Source: an uncultured bacterium
Lineage (GTDB): Bacteria; Verrucomicrobiota; Kiritimatiellia; RFP12; UBA1067
Assembly (NCBI GenBank): GCA_902801025.1
Contig: CADCGZ010000002.1
Span: 1-51,882, forward strand
Length of the DNA: 51,882 bases
Direction: 5' to 3'
The notes under the pieces were generated by a model, which was not told where the DNA came from, searched no databases, and worked only from the letters and a program-made list of their open reading frames with translations. Positions within the stretch are counted from its first letter, which is position 1, and the number at the start of each line of letters is the position of its first letter. A program made the position numbers and the translations under genes. Below are positions 34,269-38,308 of the stretch, in pieces.

Positions 34269-36209
34269 CTATGGATCAATCAAACGGGGCGTGACGAAGA
34301 TAAAGACAAACCTGTCCTCGTCGCCTTTGCGCCTGTCAGCGCCGCCGCCAAAGACGTATGTCGCGCCTGGCCTCATGCTGACCTTCGCGTCGGTGGTCGC
34401 GCGAACAGGGAAGAACGGCTGTTCCATCGGAAGATCGTATGTCGCAGCGCCTTCCCACTTCGCCTTCGCGCCATAGTCCTTCCACTCGGGCTCGCCCACA
34501 AGCTGCGTGTTCAAATCGATATCGATAAAATTGCCGTCAGCCGTCAATGACGGTGTTATTTGCACGATCGTCCCTGTCTCGCGCATCGTAAACGACTGCG
34601 GCTCTGCGGCCGCGCCCGCGGAGTCGACTCCATAGACGGTGTTTGAGCCGTCCGTCTGGCTTGAGACTGCATGATTTACATAGTAGTCGGTCGGATAGAT
34701 GTATTCCATGACGCCCTTGCAAACCGTCTCCTCCCCTGGGCGCGTGACAAGGCGCGGCGACTCGAGAAGCTTGGCGCCGTCCTGCGCCATCAACCGATTC
34801 TGCAAGACCGCCGCATTGATACGGCTCGTGCCGAAGTAGCCGACTTCCGAAAGAGTCTTCCTGTCCGCCGACATATATCGAATGTCAAACTCGATATTTC
34901 TGCAATAGCCATCGTTATGGATATTCGTCCAGAATTTCGCAACCTTGGCAAGGTTCTCGGGTGTGTTCTTTATCCAGAGGCGATTGAGCGACCTGAGTTT
35001 GTGGAGAGACGAACCCTCCGGCCATTCGACGCCAGCGGCCTTAGTGAGCCATTCCTTAGTTTCGCGCTCGTCTTCTGCGACTTCGGCGGCCTTTTCCTCT
35101 TTCGTCTTTGGCTTTGCGTCTGGATCGGGATATGCACGCATCATGCAGCAATCAAATGACAGCCGATAGAAGAATGTCCACGACTCCATTCCGTCGGACT
35201 CAAACTTGCGACGAACCTCGGGGTCACTCAAGCGCCGACTCGACGGCACGAACTCGCTGTCAGCGCAATCAACAAGCCGCGCCGTGACAAAGACGAGGAC
35301 GAACTTGTCTTCGTTTGCCCTGCGGGAATCCGTCGCGCCGCCGAAGACGAGAGTGCGGCCAGGGCGGACGCTGACCTGCGTGTCGACGCTCGCCCTGACA
35401 GGGATTAACGGCTGTTCCATAGCGAGGTCATATGTCGCCGCGCCTTCCCACTTCGCCTTTGCGCCATAGTCCTTCCACTCGGGCTCGCCAACAAGGTCGA
35501 CACGAAATTCAAGATCGATCAAATCCGCCGTATCCGACACTGTCGGCGTCACCTGAACAATCGACCCGATCTCGCGCATAGTAAACGACTGCGGCTCTAC
35601 TGTAGCGGACAAAAGCGCCGCCGCGTTCGTTGAGGATGCTATATTATGCTTCAGCTGCACACCGAAGTCAGTCGGATAGATAATCTCCTTCACATGCTTG
35701 CCGACCACTTCTTCACCCGGACGCGTGACGACGCGAACAGACTCAAGGAGCTTGGCGTCTTGGCGCTCCATTAGCCGTTCCTGCAAGACCGCCGCGTCGA
35801 CGCGGTTTGTGTCGAAGTAGCCGACGGCCTCAAGCGCCGCGCGGCCAGTCTCGACAAAACGAGTGTCGATTTCGACATTAAATGACTTCAGCGCGAACTC
35901 ATCGAGAATCTTCTCGAACTTCGCGAGGTTATCGGGCGTGTTCCGCACGTTCAAAGTTCCCGCAGTCTTCACATAGACCATGCTTGAACCTTCCGGCCAG
36001 TCGACGCCCAGCACATTGAGTGCGCTTGCAAAGTAATCCTCGTAATCCCCCTTCTTAAGCCAGATCTCCGCATCATCATCCAGCGACATACGCTCGACAC
36101 AGGCAGGCACAACCGGATACACTCGCAGTTCCATCGGCTCGGCGGCCGACACTTCGCCAAGGCAGGTTATCCCCGCCACAAGCAACATCGCAAAACAGAT
36201 TTTCTTCAT
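34269..36209 (-). CDS. Secreted protein with two tandem secretin-like modules
   Basis: 646 aa with a signal peptide. Two halves of about 331 residues repeat each other. Each has an N1/STN-like domain (WPEGSS ... NTPDNLAK/NTPENLAK) and a secretin-core-like beta domain (LLES-RVVTRPGEE, IYPTD, EPQSFTMRE-GSIVQVTP, LVGEPEWKDYGAKAKWEGAATYD, ending FVTARL/FVTPRL). Secretins form outer-membrane pores of type II/III secretion and type IV pili, but the transmembrane portion is not evident. It may be a secretin relative with a structural or regulatory job. The DNA around the two WKDYGAKAKW segments, 993 bp apart, is still highly similar. Confidence 0.72.
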   Translation of the reverse strand: MKKICFAMLLVAGITCLGEVSAAEPMELRVYPVVPACVERMSLDDDAEIWLKKGDYEDYFASALNVLGVDWPEGSSMVYVKTAGTLNVRNTPDNLAKFEKILDEFALKSFNVEIDTRFVETGRAALEAVGYFDTNRVDAAVLQERLMERQDAKLLESVRVVTRPGEEVVGKHVKEIIYPTDFGVQLKHNIASSTNAAALLSATVEPQSFTMREIGSIVQVTPTVSDTADLIDLEFRVDLVGEPEWKDYGAKAKWEGAATYDLAMEQPLIPVRASVDTQVSVRPGRTLVFGGATDSRRANEDKFVLVFVTARLVDCADSEFVPSSRRLSDPEVRRKFESDGMESWTFFYRLSFDCCMMRAYPDPDAKPKTKEEKAAEVAEDERETKEWLTKAAGVEWPEGSSLHKLRSLNRLWIKNTPENLAKVAKFWTNIHNDGYCRNIEFDIRYMSADRKTLSEVGYFGTSRINAAVLQNRLMAQDGAKLLESPRLVTRPGEETVCKGVMEYIYPTDYYVNHAVSSQTDGSNTVYGVDSAGAAAEPQSFTMRETGTIVQITPSLTADGNFIDIDLNTQLVGEPEWKDYGAKAKWEGAATYDLPMEQPFFPVRATTDAKVSMRPGATYVFGGGADRRKGDEDRFVFIFVTPRLIDP

Positions 36210-36264: not shown

Positions 36265-37272
36265 TCAGTTATGACGCGAGATTGATCCGTTGGCGAGAAG
36301 CGGGTCGGGGGCGGACGGCGAACCGAGGAAAACACGCGCCGCCTCGCGGCAGCCGCCCATGCACTTCGCCGCGCGCGCGCAGTCCGTGCACATCTCAGGC
36401 AGGTAGTCATGGCGAATGAAATGCATCCATTCCTCGCTCTCGGGAAGTCGCTCCCACTCGTTCCACCTGAGAATCTCGACAGGACTGTGGTTGCAGGCGC
36501 GGATCATTCCGTTCGGCCCTACCGTGAAGAACTCCGTTGCCGCGGAGCAGCCGGTCGAGACCTGGAGGAACTTGTACTTCTCCGCGTCTATCAGGCACTC
36601 TGGAAGTTCCGTTCCGAAATGTCCGTACCGCTTCGCGCGCGAAAGCACTTCCTCCGCAACATCGGCGACTTCGCGCACTTCCTCTGCCGTCAGCATCAGT
36701 TCGGGATGAGAAAGCCCGCGTCCGCCGGGCAGAAAGCGGTTCAAGAGCAGCGAGTCCGCGCCCGCGACGAGCGCGGCGGAAATCGTCTCGTAGAGTTCCG
36801 GCAAGTTGAGCTTCGTGACCGCGACCCCCACGGTCGTTCCGCAGCCAAGTTCGCGGGCGCGCGCGAACACGCCGAGAATGTGCTCGACAGGCGTGTCGCT
36901 GTCGGTGTTCTCCGCAAACGACTTTAGCCCCGGCATACTGACAGAAAGGCGAATCCCGCGCTCGGCGCAGAAGCGCAGCACATCGTCCGTCACGAGCCGT
37001 CCGTTCGAGAGCAAGTTCACAAGCGCCCGCTTCGACGCGAAGTCAACGAGATCGAGACACCCTTCCTTCATCAGCGCCTCGCCGCCGGTGAAGGAGAACT
37101 GGCGAACGCCGTTCGCGGCAAATTCATCGATCAGCCGCTTCCACTCGTCGACGGACATTTCGGCACTCGGCTTTATCATGCCCGCGAACCACGGACACGA
37201 GCAAAACCGACAGGCGTGGTTGCAGCGATAGGTCAGCTCCAGCGCCGCAACAGGCGGAAGAACGGTCGTCAC
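36265..37272 (-). CDS. Radical SAM/SPASM-domain protein
   Basis: 335 aa. CNHACRFC near residue 18 is the C-x3-C-x2-C motif of a radical SAM 4Fe-4S cluster; FTGGEAL binds SAM. The C-terminal SPASM region has GCSA, RACNHS and MCTDCARAAKCMGGC for auxiliary clusters. Relatives (PqqE, anSME, SCIFF maturases) modify peptides or proteins. The GTG start overlaps the stop of the upstream Cys-containing partner gene, implying matched expression. No short precursor peptide was found beside it. Confidence 0.88.
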   Translation of the reverse strand: MTTVLPPVAALELTYRCNHACRFCSCPWFAGMIKPSAEMSVDEWKRLIDEFAANGVRQFSFTGGEALMKEGCLDLVDFASKRALVNLLSNGRLVTDDVLRFCAERGIRLSVSMPGLKSFAENTDSDTPVEHILGVFARARELGCGTTVGVAVTKLNLPELYETISAALVAGADSLLLNRFLPGGRGLSHPELMLTAEEVREVADVAEEVLSRAKRYGHFGTELPECLIDAEKYKFLQVSTGCSAATEFFTVGPNGMIRACNHSPVEILRWNEWERLPESEEWMHFIRHDYLPEMCTDCARAAKCMGGCREAARVFLGSPSAPDPLLANGSISRHN

Positions 37273-38240
37273 TTCTTCGGCTCTCCCAGCAGCTCGCGCA
37301 GACGAGGGAGTTGCGACTTCATCGAGATTGAATCGCCATCAGATCCATCACGAAGATACACATTGCCCTTCATGAATTTCTCCAAAAGCTCGACGTCTGA
37401 CCTGTCGGCAAGGACACGCTTGCCGTTTATCACCCACGCCAGCGACTCTATGCGCTGAAGATGCGCGTCCTCGCCTTCTTCATACACACGGTTGCCAACC
37501 ATGGTCAATTCTACAGAATAGGCATTGGGCGAGCCCGTCAGGATCCTCAGCGGCGCTTCTACCCGCACCCAGCCCGCAGGATCGCCGGGCCTTGCGTCCA
37601 AACGAGTCAGCACATCGCCCTTCTTTGCAAAGAAGGCGCCACGACCCTTGACGAGCGGCAGATAGCGCACATTCACTTCGTCGCCCGTCACATGCCCGTC
37701 TTTGTCGATGAACTTTTCCGAAATCCAGTATTCAGGATCGCGAGGCAACACACTGCAATAACGGCGCCCCCATTCTTTCACCGTTACCGAATCTCCAACC
37801 TGAAGTCCGAAGCTCTCGTATACCCACTTGTTGTCCGGGGTTTTCCTCGGCTCGGCAACAATCACTCCAGCGGTCGGAATGCCCAAGTCTTTCAACGAGG
37901 CACAATGCCTACAAAGCGCCGACTCGTCAAGCTTGATGTCAAGCCCCATTCCCCGCAACTTCACGGCGCTGTCACGATAAAAGGCAAGCTGAGACTCCAA
38001 GCCCTCGCAGTTCTCAGGGTAATGCGTGCGCGTTCCGCACTTCTTGCAGAGATAGTCAAAAGACTTCCTTTCGGGAAGTGCCATTGAATAGCACATCGCT
38101 GTAGGCCCGTGCTTGACCTTCGGCTCTGGCGAGGCGGCGAGCTTGTCGAGCATTGCGTTAAGCTCGTCGCGGTCAAAGTTCTTGCCCTCGGCCGCAAGCG
38201 CCGACAGCACCGCGACCCCAACTTCTATCTGCGTCTTCAT
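37269..38240 (-). CDS. Uncharacterised Cys-motif protein coupled to the radical SAM gene
   Basis: About 323 aa from the ATG at 38240, not recognised. No signal peptide. A treble-clef-like metal site is suggested by YLCKKCGTRTHYPENC near residue 60 and LCRHC near residue 100. The C-terminal half is beta-rich (GDSVTVKEWGRRYC) and may be a small-barrel domain. TATAAT lies 6 nt before the ATG (leaderless). The GTGA overlap with the SPASM enzyme makes it a likely partner, substrate or scaffold; that is inference. Confidence 0.72.
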   Translation of the reverse strand: MKTQIEVGVAVLSALAAEGKNFDRDELNAMLDKLAASPEPKVKHGPTAMCYSMALPERKSFDYLCKKCGTRTHYPENCEGLESQLAFYRDSAVKLRGMGLDIKLDESALCRHCASLKDLGIPTAGVIVAEPRKTPDNKWVYESFGLQVGDSVTVKEWGRRYCSVLPRDPEYWISEKFIDKDGHVTGDEVNVRYLPLVKGRGAFFAKKGDVLTRLDARPGDPAGWVRVEAPLRILTGSPNAYSVELTMVGNRVYEEGEDAHLQRIESLAWVINGKRVLADRSDVELLEKFMKGNVYLRDGSDGDSISMKSQLPRLRELLGEPKK

Positions 38241-38246
38241 GCGGAC

Positions 38247-38252
38247 ATTATA
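38247..38252 (-). promoter_or_regulatory. -10 box of the Cys-motif/radical SAM operon, 6 nt before ATG
   Basis: GGTATAAT followed by GTCCGC and the ATG at 38240 on the minus strand. Confidence 0.55.
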
Positions 38253-38308
38253 CCACAACCGAAGACGGATTTCTGCAACTTCGCGCTCTTTAGAGCGGAT
38301 GGCACATT

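Follow-up and report, generated by a model that had tools for sequence, protein, structure and literature searches.

An overlapping gene pair for a radical SAM/SPASM enzyme and an AMCY-motif protein: a candidate protein-maturation system

The DNA analysed here, a stretch of 51,882 nt from an uncultured bacterium (hereafter the window), contains a gene for a radical SAM/SPASM enzyme that overlaps the gene for a second protein, and the question raised by this locus is what the second protein is to the enzyme. An initial annotation of the sequence had offered a substrate protein, a cluster carrier or part of a new modification pathway, and among these options the first is now the best supported. 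We consider it probable, at roughly 0.6, that the pair is a two-gene protein-maturation system in which, to judge from sequence comparisons, the enzyme would recognise a helix of its partner and modify the partner's A-x-C-Y motif.

The gene pair and its enzyme

The positions of the two genes, and of the elements distinguished within the partner, are collected in Table 1. The partner gene lies upstream of the enzyme gene, and their 4-base overlap reads GTGA on the minus strand. The enzyme comprises 335 aa from a GTG start and the partner 323 aa as counted from its ATG, an alternative upstream start, the TTG at 38258, being possible. From the overlap, we infer that the two genes share one transcript. 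Six copies of the element TGGTATAAT lie in the window, where 0.05 would be expected, all of them on the minus strand (starting at 155, 5275, 36234, 38247, 42240 and 50793), and the position of the copy at 38247, only 6 nt from the start codon, suggests that mRNA leaders are very short or absent. Because overlapping or abutting enzyme and partner genes recur in several phyla, the pairing in the window exceeds what chance would be expected to give. At 34269-36209, also on the minus strand, lies a gene for a secretin-like protein with an internal duplication (Amuc_1098-like, below the cut-off); this gene likewise adjoins the pair in genome G030, and in genome G008 it sits between two partner genes.

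Table 1. Features of the gene pair and their positions in the window
Feature	Partner residues	Position	Strand	Basis or remark
Radical SAM/SPASM enzyme gene, candidate maturase		36265..37272	minus	ORF list, Pfam, SPASM motif
AMCY-motif partner gene, candidate substrate		37269..38240	minus	ORF list, motif, alignment, model
C-terminal D..LL..F..G...LPRLRELLG element	282-319	37284..37397	minus	common to family in other phyla
SH3-like region	120-254	37479..37883	minus	between ribbon and C-terminal element
Cys ribbon (CKKCG ... CRHC)	65-113	37902..38048	minus	
AMCY motif (GCG ATG TGC TAT), candidate modification site	48-51	38088..38099	minus	
Helix ELNAMLDKLAASPEPK, candidate recognition element	21-41	38118..38180	minus	most constrained segment
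Putative signal-peptide-like hydrophobic segment	1-20	38181..38240	minus	inferred
TGGTATAAT, extended -10-like promoter element		38247..38255	minus	6 nt before partner ATG

The original description of a radical SAM/SPASM gene overlapping its neighbour by GTGA was borne out by the open reading frames, by the Pfam score (Radical_SAM, PF04055, 70.5 bits against a cut-off of 29.5) and by the SPASM cysteines. The CX3CX2C cluster motif is formed by C17, C21 and C24 in the sequence CNHACRFC, and the radical SAM core starts within the first dozen residues, so that an N-terminal RRE domain has no extension in which to lie. The window enzyme has the SPASM arrangement CX12GX4C-gap-CX2CX5CX3C, and the pattern CX9-15GX4C-gap-CX2CX5CX3C, for which we followed the motif definition given in PMC6231123, was present in 42/42 members of the enzyme family, the window enzyme included; TIGR04085 scored above its cut-off in two members (L104 and L115). 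No seventh SPASM Cys follows the CX3C of the window enzyme, and such a Cys occurs, at varying places, in 13 of the 42. What the enzyme matched in PADLOC and PHROGs was generic: pVip at 40.8 bits in the former and, at 43.3 bits in the latter, phrog_1802 (a radical SAM domain protein).

PqqE, whose substrate is the short PqqA peptide, supplied the best NCBIfam profile for the window enzyme (TIGR02109) with a score of 85.6 bits, and its PDB entry 6c8v matches the enzyme over the full length, but this score lies far under the equivalog cut-off of 381.35 bits and the partner in the window is a protein of 323 aa. The C-terminus of the window enzyme contains a conserved Asp region, the Asp of which aligns with an Asp of PqqE; an Asp is described as a ligand at Aux II of PqqE in PMC6231123, and the aligned residue is presumably that same Asp. 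For the enzyme family, the best PDB profile match was SkfB (6efn, E 3.8e-22), which, according to PMC6231123, begins to form the thioether at Met12 of the peptide and possesses an N-terminal RRE and a Twitch domain. In contrast, the window enzyme has SPASM cysteines and no N-terminal extension, and its candidate substrate, unlike those of SkfB and the sactipeptide synthases, would be a folded protein. A weak match was also obtained to TIGR04133 (rSAM_w_lipo; 39.1 bits, under the cut-off of 425 bits), a SPASM enzyme named after a lipoprotein partner. That a SPASM enzyme can act on a Cys in a protein, and not in a short peptide, has precedents in the anaerobic sulfatase-maturating enzyme and QhpD; the PDB profile match of the sulfatase-maturating enzyme to the window enzyme family covers the core only, and we take the AMCY motif to be different from the sulfatase motif.

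The partner protein and its relatives

Neither Pfam nor NCBIfam contained a family that matched the window partner above cut-off, and PADLOC and PHROGs gave no match at E<=0.001. Its CxxC motifs are at residues 65-68 and 110-113. Pfam SH3_3 (PF08239) did not match the window partner; the paralog L053 scored 30.7 bits against a cut-off of 27, and L049 scored 20.8 bits. AlphaFold models of the window partner (mean pLDDT 85.8) and of a compact AMCY protein from locus L117 (mean pLDDT 86.6) both predict a helix followed by an AMCY-bearing loop and then by the strands of the ribbon. Residues 116-254 of the window partner model adopt an SH3 fold (highest Z 6.6, with an rmsd of 2.6-2.8 across 58-62 residues), and SH3 chains made up most of the top 50 rows of the fold search with this region. 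Solved structures offered no clear counterpart to the compact L117 core (highest Z 3.7, with an rmsd of 5.4 across 82 residues; best Foldseek E 0.4), a result that does not mark its fold as new.

Comparisons within the genus showed the helix before AMCY to be the most constrained segment of the partner, with a mean pN of 0.033 for residues 21-41, against 0.084 for the enzyme and 0.465 for the SH3 region. Synonymous differences in the helix segment were also low (0.28), and recent copying may therefore add to the apparent constraint. A reading of the AMCY Cys as that of a lipobox was rejected, as it lies far past the signal segment and several members carry a separate lipobox.

A scan of 84,980 species genomes with an enzyme profile returned 254 relatives, the best of which were kept as 79 loci. 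The family, at 39-98% identity over the full length, extends over about ten phyla, the titles naming Verrucomicrobia, Lentisphaerae, Planctomycetes, Omnitrophota, Bacteroidetes, Fermentibacteria, Edwardsbacteria, Riflebacteria, Clostridia, Actinobacteria and Proteobacteria, and since many of the genomes are MAGs, single phylum assignments may be misplaced. Named strains with the enzyme are Akkermansia glycaniphila Pyt, an isolate, and Succinivibrio dextrinosolvens DSM 3072; in the latter (L147, 2238-5750) a transposase-like gene splits the enzyme next to an AMCY protein. In most phyla, the enzyme adjoins one to four proteins in which an amphipathic helix and A-x-C-Y, usually as AMCY, are combined with a Cys ribbon and a common C-terminal element. 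The partner in the window consists of this core with the SH3-like region as an insert, for which the compact AMCY proteins of other phyla have no counterpart.

We searched for AMCY, ATCY or ACCY with a helix before and a ribbon after it, and found 72 such proteins at 54 of the 79 loci (the best 79 of the 254 relatives), all on the strand of the enzyme; because the pattern demands CY, this count alone cannot show that CY is invariant, as the profile searches described below can. One further locus, L131, has an AMCY protein beside the enzyme. The distant enzyme group, 11 of the 79 loci (L153-L155, L157-L161, L163-L165), has no AMCY near. In the remaining 68, AMCY is near in 55 and SCY in one (L108), seven loci are cut by a contig end or frameshifted (L091, L096, L098, L106, L119, L121 and L146), and five, all from Bacteroidales, are without AMCY near (L137, L140, L142, L144 and L145). 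For three of these five (L137, L142 and L145), an AMCY protein was found elsewhere in each genome (L225, L227 and L229), and these genomes had not contributed to the profile; the genome of L140 gave no AMCY match. Upstream of the enzyme in L137, L142 and L145 is a 160-aa protein of KIYRGTS-type repeats.

Full-length alignment of the AMCY proteins revealed a common ribbon half, LDE..FC..C, and a common C-terminal element, D..LL..FL.G...PL....RL..LLG, both of which are present in the window protein. Positions L17, A34, C36, Y37 and C51 of the alignment are invariant in 47 AMCY sequences. By a simple hydropathy test, 55 of the 72 proteins have a hydrophobic N-terminal segment, and 15 have a lipobox-like site; several from Bacteroidales have neither. 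Four AMCY proteins accompany the enzyme in genome G617 and, in a row, in A. glycaniphila Pyt. Among neighbours of at least 90 aa in the 54 loci, broad recurrence was confined to the enzyme, in 47 loci, and the AMCY proteins, in 42, and a third conserved gene was accordingly rejected for ORFs of that size. In L093 the partner and the enzyme seemed to be naturally fused, but this reading was dismissed as well, the cause being a frameshift near the end of the partner.

These observations bear on whether the partner could be a RiPP-like precursor, the AMCY motif of which would be modified before a protease frees a short peptide, with the rest of the protein as carrier. The nearest enzyme families do include the peptide-modifying SPASM enzymes PqqE and SkfB, and a conserved, leader-like helix precedes the motif. 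We nonetheless regard such a precursor as quite unlikely, given that the motif is predicted to lie inside a folded protein in which conservation extends to the ribbon and the C-terminal element, and that no peptidase or transporter recurred among neighbours of at least 90 aa in the 54 loci. The pair also differs from sactipeptide and other RiPP systems in that its partner is no short precursor, all aligned family members being at least 167 aa in length; the earlier view of the partner as a whole protein holds.

Partner homologs with and without the enzyme

The genome from which the window derives contains a second complete pair on contig C54, with 49% identity for the partner and 79% for the enzyme, a decayed pair on C113, in which the enzyme is cut after about 83 residues and the partner is open, and two enzyme-free paralogs of the partner, on C108 and C83. 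In this and related genomes, the enzyme-free paralogs pass from a signal-like N-terminus straight into the Cys ribbon and then into SH3-like sequence, and what they lack is a segment of about 33 residues with the helix and A-x-C-Y. Some paralogs (L046 and L053, with L047 and L060 by alignment) continue after the ribbon and SH3 regions into a C-terminal, amidase-like DUF1287 domain; the scores for this domain were E 1e-68 for C108 of the window genome and 5e-70 for C1 of G030, and the C83 and G006 copies align with these two across it.

In the genus, a profile of leader plus AMCY matched at E<1e-20 at 21 places in 10/61 genomes. Enzyme sequence was found beside 13 of the 19 strong loci examined, and the 6 without an adjacent enzyme belong to four genomes (G008, G065, G075 and G077), each of which has a pair elsewhere. 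At L152, the enzyme appears to be decaying through an internal deletion and the partner is still open.

The CxxC motifs, by which the initial annotation had described the partner, are not supported as its key feature: the ribbon is retained in enzyme-free paralogs, and in the Omnitrophota partners its second Cys is replaced by Asp with AMCY kept. The ribbon was therefore rejected as the enzyme-coupled feature. On sequence evidence, it is the segment before the ribbon, with the helix and AMCY, whose presence follows that of the enzyme; the initial annotation had made no mention of this segment. The same genomes also encode ribbon and SH3 proteins, some of them fused to DUF1287, that have no enzyme next to them, which is what one would see if the two genes were simply linked, the enzyme acting on something else and the partner being an exported SH3/ribbon protein of the ordinary kind. 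We hold this to be highly improbable, since exactly the helix-AMCY segment is missing from these paralogs and since pairing and co-occurrence extend across phyla.

Co-occurrence was examined by searching each set of genomes with two profiles, one for the enzyme and one for the AMCY segment, neither of which demands CY. In the Bacteroidales order of genome G375, the enzyme was found at E<1e-130 in 9/295 genomes, the next matches being near 1e-46, and the AMCY profile matched at E<1e-20 in the same nine; three of these (G365, G375 and G380, via L115, L129 and L136) had contributed sequences to the profiles and the other six none. In the Omnitrophota, the phylum of G361, both profiles matched strongly in the same 3/237 genomes. 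In the phylum of the window (288 genomes), the enzyme family proper occurs in G000, G010 and G193, a divergent form in G097, and fragments only in G344 and G062, and AMCY-profile matches at E<1e-15 occur in G000, G010, G193 and G211. Weak matches in G407 and G911 proved on inspection to be unrelated and were rejected. Of 40 genomes chosen for carrying the enzyme, 37 had an AMCY-profile match, a partly circular figure in that most of them contributed to the profile. Distances between enzymes and between AMCY proteins at 32 loci were correlated (r=0.70, 0/5000 permutations), although shared ancestry inflates both this correlation and the co-occurrence. The initial view of the two genes as a functional pair is supported.

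A full-length partner profile, applied to 78 genomes of one family of the window's phylum, detected six homologs. The one in G920 has AMCY and an adjacent enzyme (48.8% identity over the stretch in view). The other five (G211, G229, G182, G947 and G948) have no adjacent enzyme and no Cys at the AMCY place: G211 reads ATRY there and keeps the ribbon, and the remaining four have neither Cys nor Tyr and keep both the ribbon and the C-terminal element. Whole-genome searches in the phylum scan found no enzyme at E<=1e-30 in G182 and G229 and a sister-group enzyme match only in G211; in G947 and G948, the enzyme was looked for around the gene. Loss of the Cys and retention of the ribbon in these five homologs links the Cys of AMCY, and not the ribbon, to the enzyme. 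The condition named at the outset as refuting the coupling, a partner family widespread without the radical SAM gene, was examined and has to be divided: the AMCY form was found almost only with the enzyme, whereas the scaffold without Cys-Tyr does occur enzyme-free.

Contrary cases to the pairing are few. The exception for the AMCY form is genome G032, 85% complete, in which no enzyme was found at E<=1e-20 and which nevertheless carries an ACCY relic (L058) that lacks the helix and the C-terminus. The enzyme is present and no AMCY-profile match was found in G384 and G369, the L119 locus of the latter beginning at a contig start. The decaying enzymes beside open partners at L152 and on C113, described above, also count against the pairing. 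G360 also has no AMCY-profile match, but here the SCY protein of L108 adjoins the enzyme. In G097, the partner next to the divergent enzyme has no AMCY. In G062, G344 and G006, what was found of the enzyme amounts to 3' fragments, and none of the matches spans AMCY. At L168 (728-2409), a divergent enzyme overlaps a partner of 256 aa in which AMCY is missing and Cys motifs of other types occur; this partner may represent a variant substrate.

Proposed maturation of the partner

In the maturation system that we favour, the amphipathic helix near the N-terminus of the partner would dock on the enzyme, which would then alter the adjacent A-x-C-Y, the Cys being essential and the Tyr probably involved. 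Modification would take place in the cytoplasm, before export of those partners that have a signal or lipobox, and the modified motif would end up beside the Cys ribbon in an often secreted or membrane-anchored protein. The window partner is itself probably exported, and its SH3-like domain suggests that the partner in this lineage binds the cell wall. The kinship of the enzyme, together with the dependence of the Cys on it, points to sulfur chemistry, possibly a thioether or a Cys-Tyr bond. A more specific proposal, that the SPASM enzyme fuses the AMCY Cys to the Tyr or to a near residue and so produces a built-in cofactor or crosslink in exported ribbon proteins working at the envelope, is put forward tentatively, as a possibility with the odds against it.

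The AMCY protein might instead be a helper of the enzyme, that is, an electron donor, a metal or cluster donor, or the carrier of a small molecule; the Cys ribbon next to AMCY would suit such a function, and the strict co-occurrence in genomes is equally to be expected of a dedicated partner. This we find rather improbable. Up to four divergent AMCY proteins in tandem accompany one enzyme, and such multiplicity favours a substrate over a dedicated donor; the hydrophobic N-termini and lipobox-like sites counted above would make a poor place for a cytosolic donor; and no third gene that might serve a small molecule recurs among ORFs of at least 90 aa.

If the maturation reading is correct, the pair offers a compact, testable system for radical-SAM modification of whole proteins, in which comparative evidence has already singled out the likely modified residue, and extends a field that has focused on short peptides by a class of protein substrates. 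If the cofactor proposal is also true, there would be a new class of radical-SAM-made protein cofactor at the cell envelope in many anaerobic phyla. A SPASM enzyme with its substrate is a known kind of system; the candidate substrate family named here, its motif, its size and its pairing with the enzyme are absent from the libraries searched. Our search of the open-licence literature found no description of the AMCY motif or of the pair. PMC9062424 charts over 250 clusters for this class of enzyme, and the pair may lie among them unremarked.

A sister group of enzymes, 31-34% identical, was encountered in the same order (L031, L032, L033 and L039) and at L172. Its members carry the motif CPYCYCVWHE and, as with the window pair, directly follow the gene of an exported, wall-binding-like protein; they differ in that the enzyme is about 271 aa and the partner has neither AMCY nor the Cys ribbon. 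The sister-group partners are short, exported and marked by an N-region that is long and charged; LysM (Pfam) and an RGxPMP-like end are present in some of them, and the group looks like a second pairing of an enzyme with a wall-binding protein.
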